From Hyphomonas sp. CY54-11-8 (GTDB lineage: Bacteria > Pseudomonadota > Alphaproteobacteria > Caulobacterales > Hyphomonadaceae), in assembly GCF_000682735.1 (NCBI RefSeq), contig NZ_AWFD01000033.1, positions 1 through 64,000 of the forward strand: a stretch of DNA of 64,000 bases, in the 5' to 3' direction. Made by a program: the position numbers and the translations under genes. A model generated the notes under the pieces. It did not search any database and was not told the DNA's origin. It saw nothing but the letters and a program-made list of their open reading frames with translations. Positions 21,412 to 36,020 of this stretch are shown piece by piece. How positions within the stretch are numbered: the first letter of the stretch is position 1; each line of letters begins with the position of its first letter.

Positions 21412-22581
21412 TCATGCACCCACGATGGCCGGGAGCGCTTTGCAGAAACGTTCCACGTCTTCGATCTTGCCGGTCGAGACACGCGTCCAGTCGACATAAT
21501 CCATGTATTGTCCGCGGACTGATATTTTCTGCTCAGCGAACGCTTTCTGGACGTCGTTGGCTGCCTTGCCGGATTTGAAGAAGACGAAATTCGTCTGCGA
21601 CGGCAGGTATTCGAGGCCGAGCGTGTCTAGCGTGGTCGTGATCATTTCACGAGCTTCTTTGACCTTCGCCTTGGAATAAGCCAGGAATTCCTCGTCATTG
21701 TAGCAACCGATGGCCGCTGCGTACGACGTGCACGGCGACCAGGACATGGCCGTTGCCTGAATCTTCTGGGCAACTTCCGGCGAAGAGATCGTGTAGCCCA
21801 TGCGGATACCGGCCATGCCGTAGATCTTCGAGAAGGTCCGAGACACGATCACATTCGGATTGTCCTTGATCAGGCCGATGCAGGTGTTTCCTTCCGGATC
21901 GTCGGCCAGTTCCATATAGGCTTCATCGACCAGAACCATCGTCTTGGAAGCCATGCGAGTCACAGCGGCTTTCAGCGTCGCCGCGTCTGCCACGAGGCCA
22001 GTCGGGTTGTTTGGATTGCAGAGCTGGACGAGGCCGGTTTCGGTCGTGACCTTCGCCTCAATACCTTCGAGGTCGGTTGTCATGTCCGCTTTCAGCGGCA
22101 CACGGTCAATGGTCGCCATGCCGAGACGGGCGGCATAGAGGGCCGTCGTATCCCAGAACAGACGCGGCGCAACGATCGGGCCATTCGGACCATAGATCAT
22201 TGCTATCGCCGACAGCGCTTCGCCCGAGCCGGTGGTCAGCGCAATCTGCTCCGGCGCGACGCCGTTCTTTTCGGCAATCATCGTTGCCAGCTGTTTCACC
22301 GCATCCTGCGAAGCATAATAGGCGCCTTTCGAACCGGCATATTCGATCATTTTCAGCGCGGACGGTGACGGGCCGTAAGGGTTCTCGTTGCGCGAAAGAA
22401 GCGCCACGCCTTCCGGCGGACCGAGGAGGTAGGGGTTTTCAACAGCGACCTTCTCAGGCGGGAAGGCAGCCTCTGTGGTTTCCGCGATCGCGGATGCGCC
22501 CGACGCGCAGGCTGTTGCGCCTGCTACACCGAGGCCGGTCGCGCCAGCCAGAAGAAAACGTCTGGAAATATCGTAAGCCAT
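21412..22581 (-). CDS. Tat-exported PLP aminotransferase, histidinol-phosphate-aminotransferase-like
   Basis: 389-residue fold-type I aminotransferase close to the HisC/class I-II family. Visible: LSRNENPYGPS, TTGSGEALSAIA, LCNPNNPTGL, VDEAYMELADD, and the PLP lysine in SRTFSKIYGMAGIRMGY. The product starts with a twin-arginine signal (SRRFLLAGATGLGVAGATAC) that ends in a possible lipobox cysteine, so it seems to be folded with its cofactor and then exported. Periplasmic transamination is unusual because the amino donor and acceptor must also be there. It is not in a histidine operon. Neighbours are an amino-acid-oxidase-like Tat lipoprotein, a dipeptidase and TonB receptors. Confidence 0.9.
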   Translation of the reverse strand: MAYDISRRFLLAGATGLGVAGATACASGASAIAETTEAAFPPEKVAVENPYLLGPPEGVALLSRNENPYGPSPSALKMIEYAGSKGAYYASQDAVKQLATMIAEKNGVAPEQIALTTGSGEALSAIAMIYGPNGPIVAPRLFWDTTALYAARLGMATIDRVPLKADMTTDLEGIEAKVTTETGLVQLCNPNNPTGLVADAATLKAAVTRMASKTMVLVDEAYMELADDPEGNTCIGLIKDNPNVIVSRTFSKIYGMAGIRMGYTISSPEVAQKIQATAMSWSPCTSYAAAIGCYNDEEFLAYSKAKVKEAREMITTTLDTLGLEYLPSQTNFVFFKSGKAANDVQKAFAEQKISVRGQYMDYVDWTRVSTGKIEDVERFCKALPAIVGA

Positions 22582-27114: not shown

Positions 27115-28260
27115 ATGAAACGTAGAGACTTTCTGGCGACAGGGACAGGCCTCGGCATCGCTGCCCTCACGGGGTGTACAACGACCACTACGGGATTTGC
27201 TCCCGCACCAGTGACCGGCGATGCGTTGGTCCAGTCCATCGATGCACCGATGCGGCCCATAAAATCCTCCATGAGCCGCGTGACTCGCACAATTGTCGGT
27301 CTTCGCCCCTTCCGAAAACCCGGTCCCCGGCTGGAAGCAGTGAAGATCGGTTCCAAGGATGTCGTGCACAATTACGGCCACGGCGGAGGCGGTGTCTCCC
27401 TTTCCTGGGGCGTTGCAGAAATGGCAGCGGCACTCGTCAAAAAGACGCACAGCGACAAGGTCGCCGTTCTGGGATCCGGATCTGTTGGCTTGTCGACAGC
27501 CATTCTTCTCCAACGTGCCGGCATAGATGTAACGATCTACGCCAAGGATTTCCCGCCTTACACGACCTCGAACGTTGCGGGCGCCATGTGGCACCCTGTG
27601 ACCCTGTTTGAGAATGATCAGGTCTCCCAGGAAACCCTGGCCATGCTGGATCTCGCCTCCCGGATCGCCTTCAACCGGTTCATCCGCTTTGCCAATGATC
27701 CGAAATACGGCGTTTACTGGATCCGCCAGTATTCATTGAGCGACCGGCCCATGAGCACGATCCGCCCGTATGTGGGCGGCGACGCACTCTATCCTGGGCT
27801 CAAGCGCAACCAGCCCGGCGGTCCGTTCGGCTTCCCTTATTACGACGGGTACTACACGCTGATGATCGATCCGGACATTTACCTGCGTGCACTGGTAAAT
27901 GATTTCCTCGCGGCCGGCGGCAAGATGAAGGAAATGGCGTTCGAGACCGAGGGCGACCTCGAAAAGCTGCCAGAGTCCAGTATCGTGAACTGCATGGGAC
28001 TTGGTTCCGGAAAGGTGTTCGGAGACGAAAGCATCATTCCGGCGCGCGGCCAGCTTAGCTTCCTGTTGCCTCAGAACGACATCGATTATGGCTATGCCGG
28101 ATCAACAGATGACTATGGCCTGCTTTATTCGTTCCCCAGGAAGACAGGCATTCTCTTGGGCGGATCAGTCGATAAGGGCGATTGGAGCCTTGAGCCTCGA
28201 GCGGACGAAATCCGCCGCATGGTCGAAGGACACGCCTACCTGGCTTCCAAGCTGGCTTAG
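27115..28260 (+). CDS. Circularly permuted D-amino-acid-oxidase-like FAD enzyme, Tat lipoprotein
   Basis: 381 residues. KRRDFLATGTGLGIAALTGC is a twin-arginine signal ending in a lipobox (C21). Next, at residues 59-100, come the elements that normally end DAO-family proteins: TIVGLRPFRKPGPRLE (the Arg of GLRP matches the substrate-carboxylate arginine, R283 in human DAAO) and VVHNYGHGGGGVSLSWG, which contacts FAD. Only then comes the FAD-binding Rossmann start (KVAVLGSGSVGLSTAILLQ, residues 115-133) and the body, and the protein stops after TGILLGGSVDKGDWS, just where GLRP should follow. The order is therefore a circular permutation of DAAO. GAGGAAATC precedes the ATG. Family members oxidise D-amino acids or glycine-type amines and make H2O2; the substrate here is unknown. 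Confidence 0.88.
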   Translation: MKRRDFLATGTGLGIAALTGCTTTTTGFAPAPVTGDALVQSIDAPMRPIKSSMSRVTRTIVGLRPFRKPGPRLEAVKIGSKDVVHNYGHGGGGVSLSWGVAEMAAALVKKTHSDKVAVLGSGSVGLSTAILLQRAGIDVTIYAKDFPPYTTSNVAGAMWHPVTLFENDQVSQETLAMLDLASRIAFNRFIRFANDPKYGVYWIRQYSLSDRPMSTIRPYVGGDALYPGLKRNQPGGPFGFPYYDGYYTLMIDPDIYLRALVNDFLAAGGKMKEMAFETEGDLEKLPESSIVNCMGLGSGKVFGDESIIPARGQLSFLLPQNDIDYGYAGSTDDYGLLYSFPRKTGILLGGSVDKGDWSLEPRADEIRRMVEGHAYLASKLA

Positions 28261-28292: not shown

Positions 28293-28326
28293 GACCTGGT
28301 CTTCGTTCTGAAGGCCCGGTCTTTTT
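28293..28326 (+). terminator. Rho-independent terminator of the DAAO-like gene
   Basis: A stem with arms GACCTGGTCTTC and GAAGGCCCGGTC (28293-28321) and loop GTTCT is followed directly by TTTTT (28322-28326), 33 bp past the stop codon. Confidence 0.8.
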
Positions 28327-28387: not shown

Positions 28388-28528
28388 ACTGTGTCGTCCG
28401 CCGTCAATACCGGCGCAGCTCCGAGGAGTAGTCAGGATTCAGCTCACTTCTGAAGGGCAAGGCAACTCCAAACCGATGCCTCTCCCCAAGGAAAAGCGGA
28501 ACCCAAAACGACTCTCATGGAGACCATC

Positions 28529-29338
28529 ATGTTTACCTCCCGCCTCCCACTGAAACTCGCCCTGGCATCGGCCGGACTGGCCGGCCTGCTGTTCGCCCAG
28601 CAAACCGCCAGCGCTGAAACCGCCCGCGCCGCAACCGCAAAAATGCCGCCGGTCAATGACGGCCTTCCCATGCCGGGCTTCACAATCGATCCGGCAACGA
28701 CTGCAATCGTCATCACCGATCCGCAAAATGACTTCCTGTCACCGGAAGGCGTGACCTGGGGCGTTGTTGGCCAGAGCATCACCGAGAACGGCACGGTCGA
28801 AAACCTCGAGGCGCTCTTCAAAGTTGCCGATGAGACCGGCATGCCCGTGTTCGTGTCGCCGCACTTCTATTTCGAACACGATCACAAATGGGAATTCGAA
28901 GGCACGCTTGAAACACTGATGCACAGCATCGGCATGTTCGACCGTCCGCACGCCCTGACCCTGGAAGGATTTGAAGGGTCCGGCGCCGATTGGCTCGATC
29001 GCTACAAACCCTACATCAACAACGGCAAGACGGTCGTCACCAGCCCGCACAAAGTCTACGGCCCGGAAACCAATGACCTCGTCCTTCAGCTTCGCAAGGC
29101 AGGCATTTCGAAAGTCATCCTCGGCGGCATGTCGTCGAACCTCTGCACGGAATCCCACATGCGCGAACTGATCGAGCAGGGCTTCGAAGTGATGGTGGTA
29201 ACCGATGCGACCGCAGGCGCGATCACTCCGCTTTACAACGGCTATGATGCGTCCCTGACCAACTTCCGGATGATCGCCAGCTCAGTCGACAACACGGCAA
29301 ACACCGTGAAAGCGATCAAGGCTGCTCACGGAAAGTAG
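28529..29338 (+). CDS. Exported isochorismatase-family hydrolase
   Basis: 269 residues with a Sec-type signal (LKLALASAGLAGLLFAQQTASA) and the isochorismatase fold: triad Asp in AIVITDPQNDFLSPEG, Lys in VVTSPHKVYGPE and nucleophilic Cys in GGMSSNLCTESHMREL. Some relatives are annotated as nicotinamidase-like. ATG 28529 is preferred because GGAG at 28519-28522 fits it, whereas the ATG at 28517 has no ribosome site. It is a single-gene unit between two clear terminators. With the cytoplasmic paralogue at 16146 it makes two members of this amide-hydrolase family in 12 kb; the periplasmic location suggests processing before import. Confidence 0.88.
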   Translation: MFTSRLPLKLALASAGLAGLLFAQQTASAETARAATAKMPPVNDGLPMPGFTIDPATTAIVITDPQNDFLSPEGVTWGVVGQSITENGTVENLEALFKVADETGMPVFVSPHFYFEHDHKWEFEGTLETLMHSIGMFDRPHALTLEGFEGSGADWLDRYKPYINNGKTVVTSPHKVYGPETNDLVLQLRKAGISKVILGGMSSNLCTESHMRELIEQGFEVMVVTDATAGAITPLYNGYDASLTNFRMIASSVDNTANTVKAIKAAHGK

Positions 29339-32976: not shown

Positions 32977-33480
32977 TGTGGCTCCGTCTTGTTGTTGCTT
33001 GCCGGGACAGACCCAATACCCGTCCCATATGGCTTGCCAATAAATTGTGGTGGGACATATCGCGCGCTTGTTTTTAATTGTTGCGCGCCGCATCCCGCGA
33101 CTGACGTTTCCTTCGCCCTGAACCTGTTTCTATAATCATTCTAAATTTGGAAACAAGGGCAGACCCGCCAGCGTCTGCAGCCATTCCACAAGTCGCTGCA
33201 TTTTCTGGACTTATTCGGCCGAACTGCCCCACTCATACGCGCTGTGTCAGCTGGTTCTCGCCTCCCAGCCGAGCCGAACACGCCTCCGGTCTGGCGGAGA
33301 ATCGGACTGCCGCTTCGGGGCAGCATTCCCTCCCTCGTGATTATGCCACACGGGGGCTCCGCCCCACCGGTCAATGCTGATTGAAATTTGGTCCGTTCCA
33401 AACAATGAGCCGATTCGCCCCAGTTTTTCCTTTACCTGCGCCCCCGGTCACCTACGACGAAAGGAAAAATGGAGGGTATT
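32977..33480. other. Divergent intergenic region between ahpC and the amine oxidase operon
   Basis: 504 bp with no supported gene. Features seen: the PerR/Fur-like element at 33131-33143, a CTGCC/GGCAG hairpin near 33307-33324, a GGGGC-TCC-GCCCC hairpin at 33353-33365 and a purine-rich ribosome site (AAAGGAAAAATGGAGGG) before the amine oxidase. No unambiguous promoter. Confidence 0.4.
33131..33143. promoter_or_regulatory. Possible PerR/Fur-family box upstream of ahpC
   Basis: TATAATCATTCTA differs at one base from the symmetrical PerR-type core TATAATNATTATA. Many alphaproteobacteria use OxyR for ahpC instead, and I see no clear OxyR pattern. Confidence 0.3.
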
Positions 33481-35055
33481 ATGGAGGGAGCGACCCGTCG
33501 GTCTGCATTGGCGCTCATCGGGGCAACGGCTGGCAGTGCTGCGCTGTATGCCGCGATGAAGTCCATTCGACACGTCCAGCCGTCATCATATAAAGGCCCC
33601 ATCAGGCTCGATGGAGATCCGAAAGGCGCGAAAGTCCTCATTCTCGGCGCCGGTCTCGCGGGCATGGTCGCAGCATTGGAACTTCGATCCGCAGGCTATG
33701 ACGTCGAGGTATTGGAGTATCGCGAGAAAGCCGGCGGCCGTTGCTGGACGCTGCGCGGCGGTGACACCTACACCGAGCTCGGCGGCGCGAGCCAGAAGGT
33801 TTCCTTCAAAGGCGATAACTATATCAATCCGGGGCCCTGGCGGATTCCTTATGACCATCACGGCGTGCTGGACTACTGCCAGCGTCTAGGCGTCCAGCTG
33901 GAACCTTTCATCCAGCAAAACCACAACGCCTATATCCACAATAGCAAAGCGTTTGGCGGCAAGCCGCAACGTTTCAAACACATCGCCACGGACTATCGTG
34001 GCCAGACTTCGGAATTGCTTGCCAAGGCGGTCGACCAGAATCGTCTGGATGACATGCTGACGTCGGAAGACCGGGAAGCGCTGATTGAATCGCTCCGGGC
34101 GACCGGGGCACTGGACGACACCAATTCGTATAAGGCCGGGGACCTGACCAGCCGGTATCGCGGTTTTGGCAAACCGCCGGGCGCCGGCTTCAATGGCGCG
34201 CCATCCGCTTCGGATCCGATCAGCCTGTCCGAAATCCTTCAATCCGGCATGTGGGGCCGGCTGGCCGACGCAGACCTGCTGGATCACCAGATGCCGATGT
34301 TCCAACCGGTTGGCGGCATGGACATGATCGCGCAGGCATTTGCACGGGAAGTGGGTGACCTGATCCGCTTCAATTCCAAAGTCGTTTCGCTGCAACAGGA
34401 CGATGATGGCGTGAAAGTCGCCTACGAAGACACTCGCACAGGCGACACACTGACAGCTCAAGCGGACTGGTGTGTTTGTACCGTACCATTCTCGATCCTT
34501 GGCCAGATGGATCACAATCTGTCACCGGAACTCACAGCGGCGGTGAACAATGTCTTCTATCGCGGATCCGCCAAATGGGGCCTCGAATTCAAACGCCGGT
34601 TCTGGGAGCAGGATGAACATATCTATGGCGGGATCAGCTATACCGATCTTCCCATTGAAATGATCTCTTACCCCTCAACAGGCCTCTTCACCAAGGGCCC
34701 GGCCGTCTTGCTGGGCGGCTACACATGGGATGACGCGCAGGCATACGAGTTCAACGCCATGCAACCGGAAGACAGGATCAAATGGGCACTTGAATTCGGG
34801 TCGAAACTCCATCCGCAATATCTTGAAGAATTCAAGACCGGCGTCAGCGTCGTCTGGCACAAGGTGCCATGGGTGCTCGGCTGCTTCGGTATCTGGCGGG
34901 ACAAGGAAGCTCACTACGCAAATGCGGTGAAGATCGACAACCGTGTTGTCTGCGCCGGCGAGCACGTGTCTTATCTCGGTGCCTGGCTGGAAGGCGCAAT
35001 TGAATCTTCACTCGACGCGATTGGCCGTCTGCATGACAAGGTGATCAACGGATGA
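33481..35055 (+). CDS. Exported FAD-dependent amine/L-amino-acid oxidase
   Basis: 524-residue flavin monoamine-oxidase-family enzyme. An RR-containing hydrophobic leader (TRRSALALIGATAGSAALYA) suggests Tat export or anchoring. The FAD fold is KVLILGAGLAGMVAALELRS, followed by VLEYREKAGGRCWTLRGG; the C-terminal flavin motif is NRVVCAGEHVSYLGAWLEGA. GGAGG at 33471 fits ATG 33481; ATG 33469 (with AAAGGA) is nearly as good and adds four residues. The stop overlaps the cytochrome c gene by 4 bp, and a RidA lipoprotein follows. This suggests oxidation of an amine or amino acid to an imine, with electrons passing to cytochrome c rather than only to oxygen. Confidence 0.9.
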   Translation: MEGATRRSALALIGATAGSAALYAAMKSIRHVQPSSYKGPIRLDGDPKGAKVLILGAGLAGMVAALELRSAGYDVEVLEYREKAGGRCWTLRGGDTYTELGGASQKVSFKGDNYINPGPWRIPYDHHGVLDYCQRLGVQLEPFIQQNHNAYIHNSKAFGGKPQRFKHIATDYRGQTSELLAKAVDQNRLDDMLTSEDREALIESLRATGALDDTNSYKAGDLTSRYRGFGKPPGAGFNGAPSASDPISLSEILQSGMWGRLADADLLDHQMPMFQPVGGMDMIAQAFAREVGDLIRFNSKVVSLQQDDDGVKVAYEDTRTGDTLTAQADWCVCTVPFSILGQMDHNLSPELTAAVNNVFYRGSAKWGLEFKRRFWEQDEHIYGGISYTDLPIEMISYPSTGLFTKGPAVLLGGYTWDDAQAYEFNAMQPEDRIKWALEFGSKLHPQYLEEFKTGVSVVWHKVPWVLGCFGIWRDKEAHYANAVKIDNRVVCAGEHVSYLGAWLEGAIESSLDAIGRLHDKVING

Positions 35056-35504
35056 GACATCAAGCCCGATTCCCCCGCACCGCGCTGACCGTTCTCGCTT
35101 TCTCGGCCGTTGCCCTCAACATGCAGGCCGATCAAGGCATCCCTGAAATTACAAGCTTCGAACCGACGCCACTTGAGAAGAAAATATTCGACGGCCCGGG
35201 CGTCACTGTGACCAGCGGCGAAGAGATTTACTCCACGCTCTGTGCGGGCTGCCATATGCCAAAAGGTGAAGGCGCAGTTGGCGGTGGCATGTACCCCGCC
35301 CTCGCGGGGAATGATAAGCTTGAGTATCCGGATTATGCTGTCTTTATCGTCCTGAACGGGTACAAAGCGATGCCATCATTCGCCCACACGCTTTCCGACG
35401 AGCAGGTTGCCGCGGTCGTCAATTACCTGCAGTCCGGACTGGGTAAAAATTCTTATGAACCGACCGCTACTGTCGAACAGGTCGAGCTAAGCCGGCCTCA
35501 ATAA
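35052..35504 (+). CDS. Periplasmic c-type cytochrome
   Basis: 150-residue mono-haem cytochrome c: amino-terminal signal (TALTVLAFSAVALNMQA), haem site STLCAGCHMPKGEG, and a methionine ligand candidate in LNGYKAMPSFAHTLSDEQVA. Start ATG overlaps the amine oxidase stop (ATGA), showing coupling. It is the probable electron acceptor of that flavoenzyme, delivering electrons to the respiratory chain. A RidA lipoprotein gene follows 21 bp on. Confidence 0.92.
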   Translation: MRHQARFPRTALTVLAFSAVALNMQADQGIPEITSFEPTPLEKKIFDGPGVTVTSGEEIYSTLCAGCHMPKGEGAVGGGMYPALAGNDKLEYPDYAVFIVLNGYKAMPSFAHTLSDEQVAAVVNYLQSGLGKNSYEPTATVEQVELSRPQ

Positions 35505-35525
35505 TCTGAATACGGAGTGAAACCT

Positions 35526-36020
35526 ATGCGCTTTACCATCCCTCTTCTTTCGATTGCCGCCGTCGCGCTTGCTGCCTGCGGCGCCGCCGACAGTGAAGTC
35601 ATCCGTCACAAGATTCCAGGATCCGACTTCCCGATCCTTCAAGCGGTTGAAGTGCCCGCCGATGCGACACTGGTCTACCTGAGCGGCGCCGGCCCGGCGG
35701 TCACCGACGAAACTGCTGAACCGCGAACCCCGGCGGCCTATGGGGATATTACAACCCAGACCGAAACCACTCTGGCGACGATCGAATCCCGCCTTGAGGG
35801 TCTCGGATTGACGATGAGTGATGTCATCAAAATGCAGGTCTATATTGTTGCCGCTCCGGGCGAAGACTCGCTGGACTTTGGCGGCTTCATGGAAGGTTAC
35901 GTGAAGTTCTTCGGGACAGAAGAGCAACCGAACCTGCCGACCCGCTCGGTGTTCGAGGTCGCCGGTCTCGCCAACCCGGGTTGGCTGATCGAAATCGAAG
36001 TTGTTGCTGTTCGCGACTAG
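35526..36020 (+). CDS. RidA-family lipoprotein (imine/enamine deaminase type)
   Basis: 164 residues: lipoprotein signal (FTIPLLSIAAVALAACGA, lipobox cysteine) followed by a YjgF/YER057c/RidA domain (TTQTETTLATIESRLEGLGL, DVIKMQVYIVAAPG, LPTRSVFEVAGLANPGWLIE). Classical RidA is cytosolic and hydrolyses reactive imines or enamines released by PLP enzymes and amino-acid oxidases. Here it is exported and encoded right behind an exported amine oxidase and its cytochrome, a strong functional match. The usual catalytic arginine falls in LPTRSVFEV. ATG 35526 is chosen since GGAG precedes it; GTG 35517 is an alternative. Confidence 0.9.
   Translation: MRFTIPLLSIAAVALAACGAADSEVIRHKIPGSDFPILQAVEVPADATLVYLSGAGPAVTDETAEPRTPAAYGDITTQTETTLATIESRLEGLGLTMSDVIKMQVYIVAAPGEDSLDFGGFMEGYVKFFGTEEQPNLPTRSVFEVAGLANPGWLIEIEVVAVRD

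Follow-up and report, generated by a model that had tools for sequence, protein, structure and literature searches.

The gene described here lies in a stretch of 64,000 nucleotides from Hyphomonas sp. CY54-11-8 (the window) and encodes a natural circular permutant of the D-amino-acid oxidase/D-aspartate oxidase (DAAO/DASPO) family (Table 1). The genome assembly holds a single copy of it as one open frame, and the original prediction of an intact gene with a ribosome site and its own terminator was upheld by the single reading frame, the GAGGAA motif and the downstream hairpin. A consensus scan of the region returned four terminator-like sites, where 2.1 would be expected by chance, and the gene seems to stand alone, with a terminator of its own. 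Among close Hyphomonas relatives, the order of a TonB receptor, an ANTAR regulator, the permuted gene, an isochorismatase and a YHS protein is mostly kept; the isochorismatase-fold hydrolase of the window (28517-29338, + strand), which adjoins the YHS-domain protein and belongs to this kept set, has an apparent signal peptide. The neighbours change in other Hyphomonadaceae, including five loci (L030, L031, L032, L033 and L102) at which the permuted gene is found, for no apparent reason, near purL-/purQ-like or trpA-/trpB-like genes (named by eye); genes of unrelated kinds also occur beside it. The context being constant only among close Hyphomonas relatives, the gene neighbourhood gave no clue to the substrate. 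Elsewhere in the window, the genes at 33469-36020 (+ strand) code for a flavin amine oxidase whose start is twin-arginine-like, a cytochrome c and a RidA-family lipoprotein-like protein, and resemble a set for an amine or amino-acid dehydrogenase of the envelope paired with an imine deaminase. A class I/II aminotransferase (21412-22581, - strand) combines a twin-arginine signal with a lipobox (SRRFLLAGATGLGVAGATAC), an unusual location for a PLP enzyme.

Table 1. Permuted gene of Hyphomonas sp. CY54-11-8, its flanking signals and the parts of its product (positions in the window).
Feature	Position	Strand	Basis and remarks
Permuted DAAO-family gene	27115..28260	+	381 aa ORF; stop at 28258-28260
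RBS-like GAGGAA	27106..27111	+	3 nt upstream of ATG; read from sequence
Tat signal peptide MKRRDFL... and lipobox LTGC	27115..27177	+	Motif; Cys21 (27175-27177) is the predicted lipidation site
Mature N-terminal linker, residues 22-55	27178..27279	+	Modelled with low confidence up to residue 30 and with high confidence from 41 on
Moved canonical C-terminal module, residues 56-111	27280..27447	+	Aligns to human DASPO 281-336; contains GLRPFR, YGHGGGG, then helix; R64 at 27304-27306
Canonical N-terminal and central part, residues 112-381	27448..28257	+	Structural match to human DASPO, residue mapping; contains FAD fingerprint GSGSVG, substrate domain, Y334 and Y338 (28126-28128)
Terminator-like hairpin and T tract	28298..28325	+	Consensus scan; hairpin 28298-28316, then CGGTCTTTTT

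Bacterial DAAOs share three conserved elements, a GxGxxG fingerprint stated to be N-terminal, GxRPxR and YGHGGxG (PMC9844085). The window protein, which starts with MKRRDFLATGTGLGIAALTGC, holds all three in a changed order: GLRPFR occupies residues 62-67, HNYGHGGGGVSLSWG residues 85-99 and GSGSVG residues 120-125. That the motifs of the canonical C terminus stand ahead of GSGSVG had been noticed before; this order stood, and the range of 62-98 given for them proved one residue short, as the second motif ends at 99. The end of the chain likewise lies, as predicted, just ahead of where GLRP would come.

Profile and pairwise searches gave the same picture. The main stretch matched by the Pfam DAO model (PF01266; 112.8 bits, gathering cut-off 27.9) spans residues 115-371 and reaches profile positions 1-291 of 353 only. 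When the window protein was compared with solved structures by phmmer, residues 114-370 aligned to human DASPO 13-264 and residues 58-110 to DASPO 281-336, and the human, pig and fungal DAAO chains likewise aligned in two swapped blocks. A canonical profile was derived from 14 DAAO/DASPO proteins, namely pig DAAO, human DASPO and 12 proteins encoded at bacterial loci, each of which matches it once (14/14). The window protein in its native order gives two swapped matches to this profile (131.7 and 57.9 bits), the later part of the chain corresponding to profile positions 3-255 and the earlier part to 259-315; rotated near residue 111, it gives a single full-length match (positions 3-315, 209.7 bits). 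When rotation points were scanned in steps of five residues, the score reached its maximum of 193.5 bits, as one match, at residues 111-116, against 131.5 bits for the native order; the difference is much larger than chance would give, and this maximum marks the join of the ancestral ends. After rotation, the protein is 31% identical to human DASPO (350 columns) and 26% to pig DAAO (361 columns), and about 24-33% identical to the canonical proteins. A second, normally placed copy of the motifs at the C terminus is absent, as there are exactly two profile matches and they are swapped. These results confirm the central claim of the original prediction, that the window protein is a naturally circularly permuted member of the DAAO/DASPO family; because the order of fingerprint and module is reversed, we class it in a circularly permuted sister family and not as a standard DAAO.

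The same permuted order was found in 64 homologues, which come from Alpha- and Gammaproteobacteria, from Planctomycetota and from a single actinomycete record, and the possibility that homologues would all show the standard order is thereby ruled out. Two swapped matches to the canonical profile were obtained for all 64 and one full-length match after rotation for 60 of them; the canonical profile detected no second C-terminal module in any of the 64, and no duplication intermediate carrying the module at both ends was present among the proteins collected. A swapped order could also result from an assembly or annotation artefact or from a rearrangement local to the strain. Nothing was found in favour of this explanation, which is ruled out by the same-order homologues and to which we assign practically no probability: the order is the same and contiguous in independent assemblies from many genera and three phyla, the gene in the window is an intact single frame, and the permuted proteins form one strongly supported clade. 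Two candidates for an enzyme split into separate module and body proteins were rejected. One, on a plasmid of Mesorhizobium onobrychidis (L093 3735-4798), is annotated as two FAD oxidoreductases and proved to be a single permuted gene disrupted by a frameshift of one base; the other, at L054, is a gene broken by a TAA codon, with the Rossmann start falling inside the gap.

For surveying genomes, we used a junction profile of 115 positions, which tells the two architectures apart because canonical proteins match it one half at a time only. A contiguous junction was detected in 15 of 385 alphaproteobacterial genomes (plus one interrupted gene; one canonical DAAO was found in this draw), in 20 of 398 Pseudomonadota drawn by phylum, in 4 of 246 Planctomycetota (canonical genes in 4 genomes) and in 1 of 229 Gammaproteobacteria, the latter being the genome that served as search centre; since the draws include genomes from which searches were started, these counts are not unbiased frequencies. 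Within Hyphomonas, 21 of 37 genomes match. Further permuted proteins came from plasmid records of rhizobia, Kozakia, Niveispirillum and the actinomycete Nonomuraea; in the plasmid records examined, these proteins go by the name 'FAD-dependent oxidoreductase' and no other.

When 41 permuted proteins were placed in one tree with 14 canonical ones, a single branch split the two groups (support 98/99), and the split is retained when the moved module is omitted and the body alone is used (100/99). Rooting on three other DAO-superfamily proteins, whose branches are long, places the permuted clade (99/99) nested among the canonical DAAO/DASPO proteins. The simplest reading of these trees is that one ancient permutation event founded the family. 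Circular permutations usually arise when two copies fuse in tandem and the outer parts are then lost. In the window protein, the ancestral C-terminal module, consisting of the strands with the substrate-binding Arg-Pro pair, the flavin loop YGHGGxG and the final helix, would have been linked by a connection a few residues long to what had been the first Rossmann strand; the new chain ends would have been opened in the loop ahead of the GLRP strand. A copy in the gammaproteobacterium Parahaliea maris (L029 6001-7149), 76% identical to the window protein, falls inside the Hyphomonadaceae group and was probably acquired by horizontal transfer.

An AlphaFold2 model of the window protein (13 sequences) has a pLDDT of 81 and a pTM of 0.81, with the signal region disordered. 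VIA-align superposed the body (model residues 112-380) on human DASPO (chain residues 2-264) with a Z score of 23.1 and an rmsd of 2.3 over 255 residues, and the top Foldseek matches were DAAO and DASPO exclusively; both programs keep chain order, and the superposition therefore covers the body only, with the N-terminal module outside it. For the module, strands at 56-67, 72-78 and 81-87 and a helix at 97-109 were predicted, a strand-strand-strand-helix pattern that fits what would be expected from the moved motifs. Modelled by itself, the N-terminal module is of low confidence (pLDDT 62, pTM 0.27).

Mapping onto pig DAAO equates R64 with R283, Y338 with Y228, Y334 with Y224 and H85-G93 with the flavin loop 307-315. 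The R283 equivalent is invariant in the 64 permuted and 14 canonical proteins, as are the glycines of the GxGxxG fingerprint (78/78 aligned), and the Y228 equivalent is present in 14/14 canonical proteins and in 43/43 permuted proteins outside one divergent subclade. In the latter (n=21), the substrate arginine is kept and the Y228 equivalent is replaced, mostly by S, L, N or G; these proteins probably act on a different substrate. The Y228-less large subclade comprises L023-L025, L035, L040-L050 and L091 and carries the motifs VCLRPFR, GHGGSGW and ARATGxWSPDSR. The Y224 equivalent is variable across the permuted family. Taken together, the motifs and mapped residues support a carboxylate-bearing amino- or imino-acid substrate without fixing which, and the name 'D-amino-acid oxidase' for the window protein would follow from its conserved active-site residues, an identity to canonical proteins of about 24-33% being too low to fix the exact substrate.

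We regard it as rather unlikely that the protein has retained the fold and flavin site and acts on something other than a D-amino acid, namely another amine, an imino acid or a hydroxy acid. The low identity is in line with such a change, as is the replacement of the Y228 equivalent in one large subclade, and the fingerprint and the Arg-Pro pair are also found in glycine oxidases (PMC9844085). The top NCBIfam match among those listed for the window protein is the glycine oxidase model ThiO (TIGR02352), although at 45.1 bits it is far under the equivalog cut-off of 250.8. The signal-less permuted genes of rhizobia, moreover, lie in a biosynthetic-looking operon with genes for a BBE-type oxidase and a TPP enzyme. 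The subclade to which the window protein itself belongs, however, retains the R283 and Y228 equivalents together with the FAD-loop motif, and both its sequence and its structure come nearest to DAAO/DASPO. As regards D-aspartate, the phmmer alignment places SVDKGDW of the window protein where human DASPO has TRQKGDW. The arginine near the DASPO active site that is missing here is one we take to be R237, and its absence is a mild argument against D-aspartate as the substrate.

Ahead of the moved module, the window protein shows a twin-arginine motif (KRRDFL), a hydrophobic stretch and the lipobox LTGC with Cys21. The NCBIfam Tat-signal model TIGR01409 scored 12.5 for the window protein and 17.1 for the close homologue L029 (cut-off 16.7). 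The predicted export as a Tat lipoprotein is supported by the motif and by the same pattern, a twin-arginine signal with lipobox, in 45 of the 64 permuted proteins (assigned by script), and we infer that the window protein is exported by the Tat pathway and lipidated at Cys21. Another eight carry a twin-arginine signal without lipobox (seven by script, the eighth, KRRQLLMGG of Kozakia, by eye), so that 53 of 64 have a twin-arginine signal overall (52 by script and one by eye). The remainder, sorted by eye, consists of L052 with a Sec-like start, three proteins truncated or too short for a signal to be judged (L020, L036 and L049) and seven without a signal (L016, L037, L069, L073, L089, L090 and L092). 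Export thus appears to be common in the permuted family and not universal.

None of the 14 canonical DAAO/DASPO proteins sampled has a signal before the Rossmann strand. Set against the 53 of 64 permuted proteins with a Tat signal, this would suit an explanation in which the permutation was favoured by export, the canonical N terminus being a buried Rossmann strand and the permuted one being free for signal and lipid. We nevertheless think this improbable. Permuted proteins without any signal exist, including the group L073, L089, L090 and L092, and export is therefore not required by the permutation; the permutation being a single event, no correlation or comparative test of a causal link to export is possible; and Rossmann-first FAD proteins with a twin-arginine-like start exist, such as the flavin amine oxidase at 33469-35055 in the window. 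The original suggestion that the permuted order serves folding before export was, on account of the signal-less members, not borne out as stated, and an aid of the permutation to such folding is hypothetical.

The preferred interpretation is that the window protein is a permuted flavoprotein of the DAAO/DASPO branch, and we consider it likely that it is loaded with FAD, exported by the Tat pathway, anchored by lipid and active in oxidising a D-amino acid. FAD would be bound in the cytoplasm, the folded protein would then be exported by the Tat pathway and anchored as a lipoprotein in the envelope, and R64 and Y338 would hold the substrate, which may be a D-amino acid or a related amino or imino compound, for oxidation to the imino acid.

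The permuted protein may be an envelope-bound dehydrogenase and not an oxidase, passing electrons from D-amino acids to a c-type cytochrome or quinone with little formation of hydrogen peroxide; to this we give somewhat less than an even chance. A periplasmic location, as suggested by the Tat signals, would bring respiratory carriers within reach, and in Kozakia baliensis a cytochrome c gene directly follows the permuted gene. The Kozakia protein, however, is a member of the divergent subclade without the Y228 equivalent, and no cytochrome adjoins the gene in the window, the nearest one found lying 7 kb away and paired with another flavoprotein. The Kozakia baliensis cluster also contains a canonical DAO, S12 (beta-lactamase-type) and S9/S15 hydrolases and a TonB receptor, and resembles a cluster for peptide degradation. 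On rhizobial plasmids (L089 3482-7708 and L090 3363-7690), genes for a BBE-type FAD oxidase, a signal-less permuted DAO and a TPP enzyme, with the permuted gene in the middle, form an operon that may be a biosynthetic cluster. The Kozakia and rhizobial contexts hint that substrates and acceptors differ within the permuted family.

Compared with known enzymes, the window protein shares with DAAO (EC 1.4.3.3; pig and human structures 1an9 and 2du8, and bacterial enzymes) the GxGxxG, GxRPxR and YGHGGxG motifs, the R283 and Y228 equivalents and the fold of the body (structural Z about 22), and differs in having the canonical C-terminal module first, with a Tat signal and lipobox ahead of it. Human DASPO (6rkf) is its top match among solved structures in both sequence and structure and differs from it in the unpermuted order and in the TRQKGDW segment. 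With the glycine oxidase ThiO and with the D-amino-acid dehydrogenase DadA it has the DAO superfamily and the flavin fingerprint in common, whereas structural Z scores of the model are 16-17 for glycine oxidases as against 22-23 for DAAO/DASPO, and the DadA model scored 20.8 (NCBIfam cut-off 383). Among the matches listed for the window protein, no NCBIfam model reached its cut-off, and the weak NCBIfam matches of 19 aligned permuted members were mainly to the ThiO, MnmC and DadA models. A natural circular permutation was reportedly proposed by Murzin in 1998 for a flavin-binding domain (cited in PMC2395249). Our literature search, which covered mainly open-access papers and included work on circular permutation, found no description of a permuted DAAO or DAO-superfamily protein, and the permuted family has apparently been undescribed so far. 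It is a real, ancient and novel variant within the known DAAO/DASPO enzyme family.

DAAO is among the most-studied flavoenzymes, and here a natural family shows its parts in the opposite order. Searches bound to chain order cut the permuted proteins into two matches. With a single traceable event and descendants in three phyla, the family offers a clean test of how chain order bears on flavoprotein folding, cofactor loading and export, and its members are ready-made scaffolds for biosensors and fusion enzymes. It is a long shot that the permutation, by freeing the N terminus, founded a group of periplasmic, envelope-anchored D-amino-acid dehydrogenases that feed the respiratory chain, for example with D-amino acids from the cell wall or from foreign peptides. 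The number of bacterial DAAO genes on record is just over ten (PMC9844085), and to these few the permuted family adds enzymes that probably act on D-amino acids in the bacterial envelope.
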